Positions 760 through 11,694 of a stretch of 64,000 nt of DNA are shown here, piece by piece. A program made the position numbers and the translations under genes. Each line of letters begins with the position of its first letter. Positions within the stretch are counted from its first letter, which is position 1. The DNA is from Roseibium aggregatum. Its GTDB lineage: Bacteria; Pseudomonadota; Alphaproteobacteria; Rhizobiales; Stappiaceae. The notes under the pieces are model-generated. The model was not told where the DNA came from, made no database searches, and saw only the letters and a program-made list of their open reading frames with translations. The DNA is taken from the NCBI RefSeq assembly GCF_014692675.1, contig NZ_JABFCZ010000009.1, forward strand, positions 124,001-188,000. Reading direction: 5' to 3'.

Positions 760-2775
760 ATGACCGAAAACCGCCTGGCACGTTCCACCAGCCCCTACCT
801 GCTCCAGCACAAGGACAACCCGGTCCACTGGTATCCCTGGGGCCCGGAAGCCCTTGCCGCGGCCAAGGCGGAAAACAAACCGATCCTGCTGTCGGTCGGC
901 TATGCGGCCTGCCACTGGTGTCACGTCATGGCCCATGAAAGCTTCGAGGATGCCTCTACCGCGGAAGTCATGAACCGCCTCTTTATCAATATCAAGGTCG
1001 ATCGTGAAGAACGTCCCGACATCGACCAGATCTATATGAAGGCGCTGCATGCGCTGGGGGAACAGGGCGGCTGGCCGCTCACCATGTTCCTCACGCCGGA
1101 CGGCGAACCGTTCTGGGGCGGCACCTATTATCCGAAAGAGGCCAAGTGGGGACATCCGGCCTTCGTCGACATGCTGGAAGCCGTGTCGCGCACCTTCCAT
1201 ACGGATCGGGAACGAATCGAAACCAACCGCTCCGGCCTGCTGGAAGCCCTGAAGACGGAAATCACACCCACCGCTCCCATCGACCGAAGCCTGATGATGG
1301 CCGCCGGCGAACGGCTTCTGTCGCTCTACGATCCCGAGCATGGCGGCATCAAGGGCGCTCCGAAGTTCCCCCAGGCCTCTATTCTGGACCTCCTCTGGCG
1401 CACAGGCCTCAGGGCCGGAAACGACAAGGCCAAGGAGACCTTCCTCCATACGTTGAGACAGATCGGCAACGGCGGCATCTACGATCACCTGAAGGGCGGC
1501 ATCGCCCGCTATTCCGTCGACCATCTCTGGCTCGTTCCCCATTTCGAAAAGATGCTCTACGACAACGGCCAGTATCTCGACCATCTCGTCACCGCTTACC
1601 TCGCAACCGGCGAAGACCTGTTTCGAAACCGAATCGAGGAGACCGTCGGCTGGCTCCTGGACGAGATGCGTATGGAGGGCGGCGCCTTTGCCGCAAGCCT
1701 CGACGCAGATAGCGAAGGTGTCGAGGGCAAATTCTACGTCTGGACCGCGGACGAAATTGCGGATGTTCTCGGCGAGGAAGACGCCGCTCTTTTCGCCAAG
1801 GCCTATGACGTTTCGCCGGGCGGCAACTGGGAAGGCGTCACGATCCTCAACCGCCTGAAGGCTCCCAGCCTGTCAGCAAAGGAGGAGGCTCGCCTTGCCC
1901 GGTTGCGGAAGAAGCTCCTTGAGCGCCGCAGTGGCCGCATCAGGCCCGGCCTGGACGACAAGATCCTCGCCGACTGGAACGGCCTAACGATCGCTGCCCT
2001 TGCCCGTGCAGCGCGTTTTGTTTCACGTGAATCATGTCTGGAGGCCGCACAGAGCGCCTATGACTTCGTCATGGAAACCATGATGCATGACGGTCATCTG
2101 GGCCATTCCTGGCGCGCGGGCCGTCTGCTCCTGCCGGGCTTTGCCTCCGATTACGCGAATATGATGAATGCAGCGCTCGCCCTGGCCGAGACCTGTCCCG
2201 AAGAGGCCATGACCTACATCGCCAATGCGGAGAAGCTCGGAAAGGCTCTGGTCGAGGACTACCAGACGGCTGAAGGGGCGTTTTATCTGACGGCGGCCGA
2301 TGCGGAAGGACTGATCGTGCGTCCGGTGACGTCCGCCGACGAGGCAACGCCCAACCCCAATTCCATGGCTGCCCTCGCCTTTGCCAAACTCTACATACTC
2401 ACAGGAAAGACCGAGTACCGGGACCTGGCCGACAAGGTCCTGATCGCCTTGTCGTCAGACATTCCGAAGAACGTCTTTGCGACCGCATCCCTGTTGACAG
2501 CCTTCGACACCCGAACCAATGGCCGGCTCGCGGTGATCGTCGGGCCAAGCGGTTCGGATCCGAATCCTTTCCTGAAGGTGCTTTCGAAGACCGTCGACCC
2601 GGCACTTCATTGTCTCGTTCTCGAATCGACCGATGACTTGCCGGAAGATCATCCGGCCAAGGGCAAGAATGCGCTTGAGGACAAGACGACGGTCTATCTC
2701 TGCCGCGAAGGTGCCTGCTCGTTTCCGATCACGAGACGCAAGGAACTGGAAGAAGCCCTGACTGTCATATCGTAA
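760..2775 (+). CDS. Thioredoxin domain-containing protein, YyaL/DUF255 family
   Basis: A 671-residue protein of the YyaL (spermatogenesis-associated protein 20-like) family, with an N-terminal thioredoxin-fold DUF255 domain followed by an (alpha/alpha)6-barrel-like region resembling N-acylglucosamine 2-epimerases. The signature N-terminus ([13 protein letters not shown]) and the CxxC motif C51-H-W-C54 are present. Full length matches the family (about 650-700). Its biochemical role is not established, and redox or carbohydrate-related functions have been suggested by fold only. It is a single gene, divergent from mnmE with a 132-bp gap and convergent with the GNAT gene, overlapping its 3' end. 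A parS-like 16-mer lies inside the coding sequence at 2019-2034. Confidence 0.93.
2019..2034. other. Candidate parS (ParB-binding) site 1, inside the YyaL-like gene
   Basis: TGTTTCACGTGAATCA differs at one base from the widely conserved bacterial parS palindrome TGTTTCACGTGAAACA. It is the exact reverse complement of the site at 3379-3394. It lies about 4.5 kb from the candidate oriC, where chromosomal parS sites normally sit. Being within a coding sequence is common for parS. Confidence 0.7.
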
Positions 2776-3378: not shown

Positions 3379-3394
3379 TGATTCACGTGAAACA
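3379..3394. other. Candidate parS (ParB-binding) site 2, between the GNAT gene and rho
   Basis: TGATTCACGTGAAACA has one mismatch to the parS consensus TGTTTCACGTGAAACA and is the exact reverse complement of the 16-mer at 2019-2034. It is intergenic, about 3.1 kb from the candidate oriC. Two matching 16-mers 1.36 kb apart near the hemE junction are unlikely by chance. Confidence 0.78.
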
Positions 3395-3414
3395 GGTCGT
3401 TAACAAATGGTTAA

Positions 3415-3473: not shown

Positions 3474-4754
3474 TCAGGCGTTCATGCTGTCGAAGAAATC
3501 GTCGTTCGATTTCGTCTGCCGCAGCTTGTCGAGCAGGAACTCGATTGCATCCACCGTCCCCATCGGATTGAGGATACGGCGCAGGACGAACGTCTTCTTG
3601 AGCTTCTCGGCCGGAACCAGGAGTTCTTCCTTACGCGTACCGGACCGCTGGATATCGATTGCCGGGTAAACGCGCTTGTCGGAAATCTTCCGGTCAAGGA
3701 TGATTTCGGAGTTACCGGTCCCCTTGAACTCTTCGAAGATGACTTCGTCCATACGGCTGCCGGTATCGATCAGGGCCGTCGCGATGATCGTCAACGACCC
3801 GCCCTCTTCGATGTTACGGGCGGCACCGAAGAACCGCTTCGGGCGCTGCAGGGCGTTCGCATCGACACCACCAGTCAGGACCTTGCCCGAAGACGGCACC
3901 ACCGTGTTGTAGGCGCGGCCCAGACGGGTGATGGAGTCGAGCAGGATGACGACATCGCGGCCGTGTTCGGTCAGGCGCTTGGCCTTCTCGATCACCATCT
4001 CCGCGACCTGGACGTGACGGGACGCCGGTTCGTCGAAGGTGGAGGACACCACCTCGCCGTTCACCGTGCGCTGCATGTCTGTCACTTCTTCCGGACGTTC
4101 GTCGATCAGAAGAACGATCAGATAGCATTCCGGATGGTTGGTGGTGATCGACTTGGCGATGTTCTGCAGGAACATCGTCTTACCGGTCCGCGGCGGCGCG
4201 GTGATCAGGGCGCGCTGGCCCTTGCCGAGCGGAGCAACCAGATCGATCACGCGGGACGAAAAGTCCTTGCTGGTCGGATCCTCGATTTCCATCTTGAACC
4301 GCTCGTTCGGATAGAGCGGCGTCAGGTTGTCGAAATGGACCTTGTGGCGGGCCTTGTCCGGATCCTCGAAATTGATCGTGTTCACCTTCAGAAGCGCGAA
4401 ATAGCGTTCGCCTTCCTTCGGGCTACGGATCTGGCCTTCCACCGTATCACCCGTACGCAGGGAGAAGCGGCGGATCTGGGACGGAGACACATAGATGTCG
4501 TCCGGCCCGGGGAGATAATTTGCGTCCGGAGAGCGCAGGAAACCGAATCCATCCTGCAGCACTTCCACGACACCCTCGCCGATGATGTCGACGTCCTGGG
4601 CGGCGAGGTTTTTCAAAATAGCGAACATCAGCTCCTGCTTGCGCATGGTGCTGGCGTTTTCAACTTCAAGCTCCTCCGCAAACTGCAGAAGTTCCGTCGG
4701 TGTTTTTTCTTTTAGGTCTTTGAGTTTCATTTCCCGCATCAAGTTGGGGTTCAC
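3474..4754 (-). CDS. rho: Transcription termination factor Rho
   Basis: Hexameric ATP-dependent RNA helicase that ends untranslated transcripts. The N-terminal Rho domain ([32 protein letters not shown]) leads to the cold-shock-like RNA-binding domain (about residues 57-105, [10 protein letters not shown]), then the RecA-like ATPase with Walker A APPRTGKT at residues 186-193, a Walker B-like [14 protein letters not shown] and the [15 protein letters not shown]-loop region. Length of about 420 residues is normal. The listed start is a GTG at 4754; an in-frame ATG at codon 6 or codon 9 (MKLKDL) is equally plausible, since no strong ribosome site marks any of them. The 248-bp gap upstream to hemJ contains a strong hairpin. 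Confidence 0.97.
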
Positions 4755-5442: not shown

Positions 5443-6471
5443 TTATCCCTTCCTGACCAGCTCGACCATGCGCGTGACATTCTCCGGATCCGCATCCGGC
5501 GTGATGCCATGGCCCAGGTTGAAGATCAGGGGACCCTTGTTGAAGGTTTTCAGGATGTGGTCGACCCCTTCGTCCAGTGCCCGGCCGCCGGCCACCAGCC
5601 GCATCGGATCGAGATTACCCTGTATCGGAACCCGTTTCTGGATCTCCAGCGCGAGTGTGTCCGGCGCTGTCCAGTCGAAACCGACCGCATCCACGCCGGT
5701 CCCTTCGATGAACTTGGCCATTCGTGCCGATGAGGCTTTCGGGAAACCGATGATCTTCGCACCGGGACGTTCCGCCCTCACGCCATCGACGATCGCCCGT
5801 GTCGGTCTGATCGACCAGCGCTCGAAACCGGCATCGTCGAGCACGCCGGCCCAGGTATCGAAAATCTGGACCGCATCGGCTCCGGCATCGAGCTGGCGGA
5901 TGAGGTAGCGGATCGAAGCGCTGACAAGCTGATCGATGAATCTCTGCATCAGCTCCGGATCGCGATAGGCGCCGACACGTGCGGCTACCTGTTCCTGGGT
6001 CGTATGGCCGGCAACGGAATAACAAGCCACGGTCCAGGGAGCGCCGCAGAAGCCCAAGAGGGTGGTCTCAGTGGGCAGTTCTGCTCTCAGGCGTGAAACC
6101 GTCTCTATGACCGGTTTGAGATGATCTTCGGCCCGGTCCTGTTCCAGACGGTCCAGAATGTCGGATGACAGAGGGTCCAGTACCGGACCCCGTCCCTCTT
6201 CAAAGCGAACCGGATAACCGATTGCATCGGGAACGACGAAGATGTCTGAAAACAGGATCGATGCATCAAAGCCATAACGGCGGATCGGCTGGAGTGTGAC
6301 TTCCGTTGCCAGGTCCGGGTTGTAGCAGAAGTCGAGAAAGTTCTTCGCCTTGGCTCTGACTTCCCGGTACTCGGGGAGGTACCGGCCGGCCTGGCGCATC
6401 ATCCAGACGGGAGGTGGCCAGAGCTTCTCTCCGGCTAACACACGCATTACGGCTCGGTCCTGAGACTTCAT
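5443..6471 (-). CDS. hemE: Uroporphyrinogen decarboxylase HemE
   Basis: Cytosolic enzyme removing four carboxyl groups from uroporphyrinogen III to give coproporphyrinogen III. The 342 residues are standard length. The family N-terminal signature PVWMMRQAGRYLPEY is present, as are the GFCGAPWT region and the C-terminal FNLGHGITP motif. It starts with ATG at 6469-6471 and is followed after 5 bp by hemJ. Its upstream region is the candidate chromosomal origin, as in Caulobacter and many Hyphomicrobiales, where hemE expression is linked to the origin region. Confidence 0.97.
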   Translation of the reverse strand: MKSQDRAVMRVLAGEKLWPPPVWMMRQAGRYLPEYREVRAKAKNFLDFCYNPDLATEVTLQPIRRYGFDASILFSDIFVVPDAIGYPVRFEEGRGPVLDPLSSDILDRLEQDRAEDHLKPVIETVSRLRAELPTETTLLGFCGAPWTVACYSVAGHTTQEQVAARVGAYRDPELMQRFIDQLVSASIRYLIRQLDAGADAVQIFDTWAGVLDDAGFERWSIRPTRAIVDGVRAERPGAKIIGFPKASSARMAKFIEGTGVDAVGFDWTAPDTLALEIQKRVPIQGNLDPMRLVAGGRALDEGVDHILKTFNKGPLIFNLGHGITPDADPENVTRMVELVRKG

Positions 6472-6901
6472 GAGGCAATGACCCTTTCACACATTCCAGC
6501 TCTTAAAGAATCTTATATTTGGATTCTGTTTTTTCTTATTGTGCGTGGATTAGCTGGATCATTTGATATCCACAATCACTCAAGCGCACATTCGGATCGG
6601 GATAAATCGTCTCAGATTCTGGACAACCAATCCTCCACAGGAGTCAATAAGTCGGAAAAACAATGAAAATCAATGCCTTATAGAAAAATTTACGATTGGT
6701 TAATAAATAGGGCAGCGGTGAATCACTTGTCAATTTCTCATCGCCATTCTGTTAATCCACATGACCCTCAGATCGTTTCGCTGGGAGTCGAAGCAAATTA
6801 ACGGACTGTTCATAAATCCGGCTCAGCGGGTACAAACACCATGACACGAACGCCGGCCGCCCTTACGGCCACAAATAATCAACAGCCCTGGGGATGACAC
6901 C
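6472..6901. other. oriC: Candidate chromosomal replication origin (oriC) between hemE and ppsR
   Basis: A 430-bp AT-rich non-coding gap between divergent hemE and ppsR, the position of oriC in Caulobacter crescentus and several Hyphomicrobiales. Near-consensus DnaA boxes (consensus TTATCCACA) are ATATCCACA at 6566-6574 and TAATCCACA at 6753-6761 (one mismatch each), with weaker ones at 6544-6552 (reverse) and 6631-6639. Six GANTC methylation sites lie at 6508, 6522, 6615, 6641, 6720 and 6785. The stretch 6661-6712 is the most AT-rich and could be the unwinding element. Gene direction reverses here: hemE, hemJ, rho and mnmE run left, ppsR to dnaQ run right. The hemE and ppsR promoters must also lie in this gap. 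Confidence 0.75.
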
Positions 6902-7744
6902 GTGAACAAGTCCAGACACTATTTTCATCTCCATCTGGTCTCCGATTCCACCGGCGAAACGCTGATGACCGTCTCCCGCGCGGCGACGGCGCAATATGAG
7001 AACGTGCAGGAAATCGAGCATGTCTATCCGCTGGTGCGGACCCAGAAGCAGCTCGACCGGATTCTCAATGAAATCGAGGCGGCACCGGGGATCGTACTCT
7101 ACACTCTGGTCGATACCGAACTTGCCACCAGGCTGGAACGCAGCTGCAAGGACCTGGGCATTCCGATCGTTAATATTCTGGCGCCGGTCTTTGCCGTGTT
7201 CCAGTCCTATCTGAATGTGACCCAGACCCACCGGATCGGCGGCCAGCACGAGCTCGATGCGGAATATTTCAAGCGCATGGAAGCGCTGAACTACACCATG
7301 ATGCACGACGACGGACAGATCTGGGAGGACCTGGAATCCGCCGATATCGTCCTGCTCGGAATTTCCAGAACGTCCAAGACGCCGACCTGCATCTATCTGG
7401 CGAACCGGGGCATCAAGGCGGCGAATGTGCCGCTTATTCCGGATATTCCCCTGCCGCCGGCGGTCACAGACCTCAAGAAGCCTCTGATCGTCGGCCTGAT
7501 TGCGTCGGCGGAACGCATTCAGCAGATCCGCAGAAACCGCGTCCTGTCGCTTCATTCGGAAAACTACAACGAGACCTATGTGGACCGGAAGGAAATCGCC
7601 CGGGAAATCACCATGACAAGACGGCTGTGTTCGGAAAACGACTGGCCGCTGATCGATGTCACCCGCCGGTCGATCGAGGAAACGGCTGCGGAAATCATGG
7701 CGCTTTTCCGTGAAAAAAAGGCACGCGAGGAAGAAGAAGCCTGA
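6902..7744 (+). CDS. ppsR: Pyruvate, phosphate dikinase / PEP synthase regulatory protein (DUF299)
   Basis: Bifunctional serine/threonine kinase and pyrophosphorylase that switches PPDK or PEP synthase off and on by ADP-dependent phosphorylation and phosphate-dependent dephosphorylation. The 280 residues begin with the family signature FHLHLVSDSTGET and contain the P-loop-like GISRTSKT at residues 153-160. The start is a GTG at 6902. It is the first gene of a rightward string (ppsR, maf, aroE, coaE) on the other side of the candidate origin from hemE. The target enzyme is not in the window. Confidence 0.94.
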   Translation: MNKSRHYFHLHLVSDSTGETLMTVSRAATAQYENVQEIEHVYPLVRTQKQLDRILNEIEAAPGIVLYTLVDTELATRLERSCKDLGIPIVNILAPVFAVFQSYLNVTQTHRIGGQHELDAEYFKRMEALNYTMMHDDGQIWEDLESADIVLLGISRTSKTPTCIYLANRGIKAANVPLIPDIPLPPAVTDLKKPLIVGLIASAERIQQIRRNRVLSLHSENYNETYVDRKEIAREITMTRRLCSENDWPLIDVTRRSIEETAAEIMALFREKKAREEEEA

Positions 7745-10682: not shown

Positions 10683-10714
10683 CCGAATCCGTCAAAGCCC
10701 GAATCCGTCAGAGC
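10683..10714 (-). repeat. 16-bp tandem duplication covering the 3' end of the dehydrogenase gene
   Basis: CCGAATCCGTCAAAGC is followed directly by CCGAATCCGTCAGAGC (one mismatch). The second copy includes the dehydrogenase stop codon (10708-10710). Probably a small slippage duplication without function. Confidence 0.6.
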
Positions 10715-11694
10715 ATGGACGGCAGGACCCGGTCCGGCGGACGGTGGCCGTCCATGAAGGTCTTGATGTTGATGATCACCTTCTCGCCCATCTCGATACG
10801 GCCTTCGATGGTCGCCGAGCCCATATGCGGCAGCAGCACGACGTTTTCCAGTTCAACGAGCTTCGGATTGACCGCCGGCTCGTGTTCGAACACGTCGAGG
10901 CCTGCGCCGGCAAGGTCGCCGGATTCAAGCATCCGGATCAGGGCGTTTTCGTCGATCACTTCACCGCGGGCGGTGTTGACCACGTAAGCCCCCTTCTTCA
11001 AAAGCTTCAGCCTGCGGGCCGACAGAAGATGGAAGGTTGCCGGCGTGTGCGGGCAGTGGATGGAAACCACATCCATGCGGGCGAGCATCTGGTCGAGACT
11101 GTCCCAATAGGTGGCTTCGAGGGCGTCTTCCACGTCGGCCGCCACCCTGCGGCGGTTGTGATAGTGGATCGACATGCCGAATGCCTTGGCACGGCGGGCG
11201 ACGGCCTGGCCGATCCGGCCCATGCCGATGATGCCGAGGCGTTTTCCCCAGATCCGGTGACCCAGCATCCAGGTCGGCGACCATCCCGACCATTCGCCGG
11301 TTTCGATCGCCTTGATCCCTGCGGCCAAACGGCGCGGCACGGCAAGCATCAGCGCCATGGTCATGTCGGCGGTGTCTTCCGTCAGCACGCCGGGCGTGTT
11401 GGTGACGTTGATGCCCCGGTTGTTGGCCGTCAGCACATCGATATTGTCGACGCCGTTACCGAAGTTGGCGATCAGCCGAAGATTCGGGCCGGCCTGGGAC
11501 AGAACCGAGGAATCGATCCTGTCGGTAACCGTCGGCACCAGAACATCGGCGGTTTTGACCGCTTCAACGAGTTCGGCCTGGCTGAAAGGCCGGTCGTTTT
11601 CGTTCAGCCGCGTCTCGAACAATTCGCGCATGCGGGTTTCAACGACATCCGGCAATTTCCGGGTTACGACGACCACAGGCTTCTTTTTCGCCAT
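10708..11694 (-). CDS. D-2-hydroxyacid dehydrogenase (glyoxylate/hydroxypyruvate reductase-like)
   Basis: NAD(P)-dependent reductase of 2-keto acids. The 328 residues contain the Rossmann motif GMGRIGQ, the VNTARGEVIDE segment with the catalytic arginine region, the DVFEHEP glutamate motif and the active-site histidine in LPHMGSAT. The sequence is closest in character to the GyaR/glyoxylate reductase branch (NFGNGVDNID), but the exact substrate cannot be read from sequence. It is a single gene, convergent with dnaQ across a shared terminator. Its ATG is at 11692-11694. Confidence 0.93.
   Translation of the reverse strand: MAKKKPVVVVTRKLPDVVETRMRELFETRLNENDRPFSQAELVEAVKTADVLVPTVTDRIDSSVLSQAGPNLRLIANFGNGVDNIDVLTANNRGINVTNTPGVLTEDTADMTMALMLAVPRRLAAGIKAIETGEWSGWSPTWMLGHRIWGKRLGIIGMGRIGQAVARRAKAFGMSIHYHNRRRVAADVEDALEATYWDSLDQMLARMDVVSIHCPHTPATFHLLSARRLKLLKKGAYVVNTARGEVIDENALIRMLESGDLAGAGLDVFEHEPAVNPKLVELENVVLLPHMGSATIEGRIEMGEKVIINIKTFMDGHRPPDRVLPSML

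Follow-up and report, generated by a model that had tools for sequence, protein, structure and literature searches.

The 430-bp intergenic gap between hemE and the PPRP gene, at positions 6472–6901, is almost certainly the origin of replication (oriC) of the Roseibium chromosome. It lies in the window analysed here, a stretch of 64,000 nucleotides (C130:124001–188000) from a 5.66-Mb draft genome in 130 contigs, whose own contig, C130, is 194 kb long; protein and contig matches assign the window to Roseibium/Labrenzia. We computed the location of the gap, its GC skew, its gene neighbourhood, and the clustering and conservation of its sites. Its place, flanking genes, skew and complement of sites mark the gap as a hemE/COG1806-type origin like Cori of Caulobacter, ordinary in kind.

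Results

The gap (C130:130472–130901) takes up the whole space between hemE on its left (5443–6471, minus strand; TIGR01464, 380.8 bits for a cut-off of 302.95) and, on its right, the gene of the PEP synthase and pyruvate phosphate dikinase regulator, PPRP or ppsR (6902–7744, plus strand; NF003742, 342.1 bits for a cut-off of 225), the latter scoring under the cut-off of the stricter PpsR equivalog NF049928 (156.8 vs 350). By NCBIfam matches and orientation, these flanks are a divergent pair of hemE and COG1806 (DUF299/PPRP) genes. An earlier note on this DNA had proposed the gap as the origin and called it AT-rich and non-coding, a description that was borne out: its GC content is 44%, compared with 54.5–67.7% across the 2-kb blocks of the window, and its AT content is higher than that of the genome. 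The same note had seen a switch of gene direction here, which holds beside the gap, the minus strand on the left carrying hemE, rho, mnmE and mnmG and the plus strand on the right PPRP, maf, aroE, coaE and dnaQ, but not farther out, where an ORF on the plus strand at the left (760–2775) and one on the minus strand at the right (10708–11694) break the pattern. We take two further left-side genes to be hemJ and rsmG. The gene order seen here matches the order around alphaproteobacterial origins.

The cumulative GC skew of C130 is lowest at 132470, 1.6 kb to the right of the gap, with a mean skew of –0.027 on the left and +0.009 on the right. This skew is weak and stays flat over about 30 kb to the right of the gap, so that skew alone places the switch only to some kilobases. 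Since the draft is in 130 contigs, a whole-chromosome skew cannot be drawn for this genome; the complete chromosome of Labrenzia sp. THAF82 (6,395,015 bp), the sole complete relative sampled for skew, was covered by 40 samples of 20 kb, one every 160 kb, and by a contiguous scan from 200 to 460 kb. Within that scan the local minimum, at 331688, lies in PPRP, 0.6 kb away from the THAF82 gap (about 332270–332694). When the 40 samples are divided by two breakpoints, the best positions are 320 kb and 3.52 Mb in the 6.395 Mb, half a chromosome apart, and the two arms have mean skews of +0.035 and –0.027; the samples at 640 and 5760 kb are of the opposite sign to their arm, and in those at 3520 and 5280 kb the skew is weak. 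The check by cumulative skew that the earlier note had called for is therefore positive, with a minimum at the gap region, away from dnaA, both in the own contig and in THAF82. The orientation of the KOPS octamer GGGNAGGG, taken from the 20-kb THAF82 samples and summed by hand over all 40, is 30 forward to 8 reverse on one arm and 3 to 40 on the other; inside C130 the octamer has no clear polarity. TA skew in the THAF82 samples was noisy and was set aside.

Sites resembling DnaA boxes are concentrated in the gap. Both one-mismatch boxes that had been read from the sequence are present, ATATCCACA at 6566–6574 and TAATCCACA at 6753–6761, both on the plus strand, with a site of at most two mismatches at the same place in 39 and 36 of 45 family gaps, respectively. 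The note had added two weaker boxes, and this total of four is too low, the gap holding nine sites with at most two mismatches. An inverted box with two mismatches, TAATCCACG, lies on the minus strand at 6544–6552 (a site of at most two mismatches in 40/45), and a W-box-like site, TCATCCCCA, at 6889–6897 on the minus strand (39/45) has the TCCCCA core of the Caulobacter W-box, whose consensus is given in the available part of PMC4285127. Weaker DnaA-like sites are TTGTCCAGA (6618–6626, minus strand, 14/45), TTATGAACA (6807–6815, minus strand, 27/45) and TAATCAACA (6876–6884, plus strand, 21/45), together with TTATCCCGA (6597–6605, minus strand) and TCCTCCACA (6631–6639, plus strand), each of which has two mismatches and falls outside the sites found in at least 12 of the 45. 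No DnaA box in the gap is perfect or has the strict form TTATNCACA as used in the available part of PMC1914354.

One-mismatch boxes are not enriched across the window (5 observed vs 4.42 expected), and two of these five are inside the 430-bp gap; in C130, two of 15 are in the gap, a density matched by some other placements, as 0.2% of 430-bp placements in the contig reach two. With the threshold at two mismatches, the nine sites of the gap are the contig maximum (262 sites in 194 kb, about 0.6 per 430 bp), the maximum per 430 bp on contig C44 is six, and among 52 THAF82 samples the gap has ten and the runner-up six. The family set of 45 distinct gaps has a mean of 8.4 DnaA-like sites (range 4–12), and every fourth family gap gave 7.8 compared with 1.4 in shuffles, which here and below preserve base composition only. 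Because related sequences share descent, counts over these sequences are not counts of independent events. Three DnaA-like columns that are frequent in relatives, 6642 (35/45), 6717 (37/45) and 6728 (23/45), lack a site of at most two mismatches in the window, whose boxes are thus not arranged identically to those of its relatives.

The length of the gap is itself conserved, at 424–444 bp in the 45 distinct family gaps. The gene hemE lies beside PPRP at 30 of 30 loci of the genus (the 30 best among 97 matching genomes). The earlier note had stated that this junction hosts the origin in several Hyphomicrobiales: the junction is indeed conserved, with hemE beside PPRP at 70 of 80 named loci (the 80 best among 179), but a literature search by listing gave no origin experiment in this group. 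Ten named loci are without a hemE match, one of which, L086, has merely about 0.4 kb upstream and is uninformative. At another of the ten, the locus of Bradyrhizobium neotropicale (L106:1597–2492), hemE is absent next to PPRP, the gap lying between a hemJ-like ORF and PPRP, with a rho-like ORF beyond the hemJ-like one (both named by eye). One 3.6-Mb draft genome of the same genus as the window (G038), listed as 100% complete, has no PPRP match, yet has parS sites.

Two other placements of the origin were weighed. The origin might adjoin dnaA, as in many bacteria and as is usual in gammaproteobacteria according to the available part of PMC1914354, the gap being just the region of divergent promoters of hemE and PPRP, both of which must presumably sit in it in any case. 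However, dnaA is 330–567 kb from PPRP in six relatives, the largest figure assuming a circular record, and in the own genome the single dnaA is on a different contig, C44, where there is no skew switch at the gene (negative on both sides, –0.015 and –0.017); in THAF82 the samples on either side of dnaA, at 1 and 160 kb, are likewise negative, and C44:69000–72400, around dnaA, has only two DnaA-like sites with at most two mismatches. We consider an origin at dnaA very improbable. The same very low probability attaches to a true origin in a different intergenic gap within some 10 kb, to which the hemE–PPRP gap would merely be close: the skew resolves the switch to kilobases only, with the own-contig minimum to the right of the gap, and the parS sites are gathered on one side. 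Against this, 430-bp placements elsewhere in the contig all have fewer DnaA-like sites than the gap, the length of the gap and its internal sites are conserved family-wide, and the change of gene direction falls at the gap.

Of six other Roseibium genomes searched, five encode a second DnaA-like protein (PF00308, 138–147 bits), whereas the genome of the window has one only. The gene of this second protein and PPRP, where they share a contig, are over 1 Mb apart, and the record of one relative (G017) starts near this second copy and not at dnaA. In THAF82 it is at L186:7163–8635 (G044:C1:5115162–5116634); a second origin there was considered and rejected, the surrounding 16 kb holding one one-mismatch box and the samples no change of sign.

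Within the gap, the earlier note had pointed to 6661–6712 as very AT-rich, which is correct: of the 30-bp stretches near the gap, the one of lowest stability falls in this segment (–30.5 kcal/mol, from 6680). As the implied unwinding region it is probably wrong. The stretch from 6510 is almost as unstable (–31.4 kcal/mol) and its surroundings are better conserved than those of 6680; across the 45 gaps, the 30-bp stretch of lowest stability begins at 6480–6519 in 35, at 6600–6619 in two and at 6640–6699 in eight. The best conserved runs of the gap are 6525–6531, 6545–6552 and 6569–6576, the first being the TCTGTTT (99% conserved) of an AT-rich block with a T-run at 6503–6543, our candidate DNA unwinding element. 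On the minus strand, starting 3 nt past the 9-mer inverted box TAATCCACG, a DnaA-trio array reads AAT AAG AAA AAA CAG AAT (5'–3') from 6540 to 6523. The middle A of units 1–5 is kept in 45, 42, 45, 45 and 45 of 45 sequences, several flanking letters being variable, and strict trio runs in the family gaps have a mean of 2.87 units compared with 1.90 in shuffles. Following the box-spacer-trio rule of the basal unwinding system (BUS) given in the available part of PMC8287927, the box is succeeded within 16 bp by at least three same-strand trinucleotides with a middle A.

Among 33 distant gaps of the order, where related loci are counted repeatedly, the longest array at the same strand and end has a mean of 3.64 units vs 2.50 in shuffles with the looser unit [ACT]A[AGT], and four other placements by strand and end are at or under the shuffle level. 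When each gap is compared with shuffles of its own sequence, 12 of the 33 attain p≤0.03 and 21 do not, and the gaps of Phreatobacter, Rhodoplanes and Alsobacter have no convincing trio array. An anatomy in which 6661–6712 is the unwinding element and the hemE-side block merely the hemE promoter would be favoured by the low stability from 6680 in the species of the window and by a match to the published IHF consensus at 6668. We regard it as unlikely: the least stable start is on the hemE side in most relatives, as are the inverted box and the DnaA-trios, and the IHF-like site is found at its column in one of 45 gaps, namely the window itself. As a conserved feature the IHF site at 6668–6680 was rejected, since the motif occurs in 2/45 gaps compared with 1.7 in shuffles. 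The hemE-side block 6503–6552, with its AT-rich DNA, DnaA-trios and inverted box, is probably the unwinding site in preference to 6661–6712; on the trios, the conserved runs and the least stable starts in 35/45, we place the element itself at 6503–6543 with moderate confidence.

Five parS-like sites with at most one mismatch are present in the own genome, all in C130:121019–127394, 3.1–9.5 kb from the gap, and three complete relatives have four, three and four at the same threshold, all on the hemE side and within about 10 kb; a reversed parS pattern, used as a control, gave zero matches. Two of the five, both TGATTCACGTGAAACA, are in the window, at 2019–2034 (minus strand, 4.5 kb from the gap) and 3379–3394 (plus strand, 3.1 kb), and the other three are to the left of it (C130:121019, 123203 and 123260). 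In TGATTCACGTGAAACA, the common Roseibium form, the palindrome is broken and a GATTC (CcrM GANTC) site is created; this form occurs in all 45 genomes of the genus that were searched, that of the window among them, and the perfect palindrome TGTTTCACGTGAAACA in 4 of the 45, while 25 of 40 genomes from other families of the order have the perfect palindrome. The site at 2019–2034 falls within ORF 760–2775, whose product presumably resembles a DUF255/thioredoxin-like protein. Five bases past the site at 3379–3394, upstream of rho, is a palindromic CtrA-like TTAA-N7-TTAA (3400–3414).

The gap of the window has two CtrA-like sites, each one mismatch from TTAA-N7-TTAA and both imperfect and predicted from sequence: TTTA-N7-TTAA at 6689–6703 and TTAA-N7-TTCA at 6798–6812, both on the plus strand. 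The form TTWA-N7-TTAA is found at these columns in 35 and 26 of the 45 gaps. Over the whole family set the exact TTAA-N7-TTAA occurs in 16/45 gaps (0.7 in shuffles) and TTWA-N7-TTAA in 39/45 (1.9 in shuffles), mainly at the two fixed columns 6689 and 6798, with a background per 430 bp of 0.027 for C130 and 0.014 for the THAF82 samples. The CcrM motif GANTC occurs six times in the gap vs 0.54 per 430 bp in the contig: a pair, GAATC at 6508 and GATTC at 6522 (6508–6526), lies inside the unwinding block, and four further sites are at 6615, 6641, 6720 and 6785. Its mean over the 45 gaps is 4.4 compared with 1.6 in shuffles, and it is kept at the aligned columns 6509, 6522 and 6641 in 36, 42 and 38 of 45. 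Together, the CtrA-like and GANTC sites suggest that this origin may be under cell-cycle control.

Discussion

The hemE/COG1806 junction that the earlier note had named as the Caulobacter origin is experimentally identified as such in Caulobacter crescentus (PMC1914354, available part). Being found at the place expected for its group, the Roseibium origin is ordinary in kind, and with a hemE/COG1806 origin already known from Caulobacter it is not a new origin type. Compared by published description, Cori has the same two flanking genes (hemE CC3763, COG1806 CC0001), and, going by the available parts of PMC1914354, PMC4285127 and PMC3973325, the two origins are further alike in weak DnaA boxes, an AT-rich stretch, CtrA-like TTAA-N7-TTAA sites and several GANTC motifs, the last already published for the Caulobacter origin (PMC3973325). 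The two differ in detail: the Caulobacter G-boxes are TGATCCACA in the available descriptions, a form present in 6/45 of the Roseibium family at column 6753, and Caulobacter is described with five CtrA sites, whereas there are two recurrent CtrA-like columns here, without a conserved IHF site. The predicted hemE/COG1806 origins of Rickettsia, again compared by description, share the flanking genes, the gap of R. prowazekii being more than 400 bp (PMC1914354, available part). With the BUS as described in the available part of PMC8287927, the hemE side of the gap shares a predicted box, TAATCCACG, a 3-nt spacer and five to six same-strand trinucleotides with a middle A; it differs in that the box has two mismatches and that no same-strand tandem partner was seen.

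A literature search by listing returned no experimental work on a Hyphomicrobiales or Roseibium origin. The published Sinorhizobium meliloti origin is reportedly close to hemE, and origin databases such as DoriC may list predictions for Roseibium. In the available part of PMC6699656, Labrenzia serves only as a tree outgroup, and that of PMC4036050 mentions a skew-based prediction of a Bradyrhizobium origin, its place unstated.

We infer every binding, opening and timing step of the following model. DnaA would load on the cluster of weak boxes, chiefly on the facing pair at 6544–6552 (minus strand) and 6566–6574 (plus strand), aided by the box at 6753–6761 and the W-box-like site at 6889–6897, and would extend over the minus-strand DnaA-trios from 6540 down to 6523. 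The AT-rich hemE-side block at 6503–6543 would then open and forks would depart bidirectionally, and ParB on the parS sites 3–9.5 kb away would segregate the new origins. A tentative extension, which we consider rather unlikely as a whole, is that the start of replication and the start of segregation in Roseibium share epigenetic and cell-cycle marks, GANTC being in the unwinding block and, as GATTC, in the parS form TGATTCACGTGAAACA, and missing from palindromic parS. On this hypothesis, the two conserved CtrA sites could let CtrA keep DnaA off, and hemimethylation in the wake of the fork could set the timing of re-initiation as well as of ParB loading.

These results fix the origin for a marine genus for which the titles listed in a literature search included no origin study. 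Comparing 45 distinct origins gives a pointer to the unwinding site and hints at control by CtrA, and the recurrent CtrA-like sites make that question testable in one further group.
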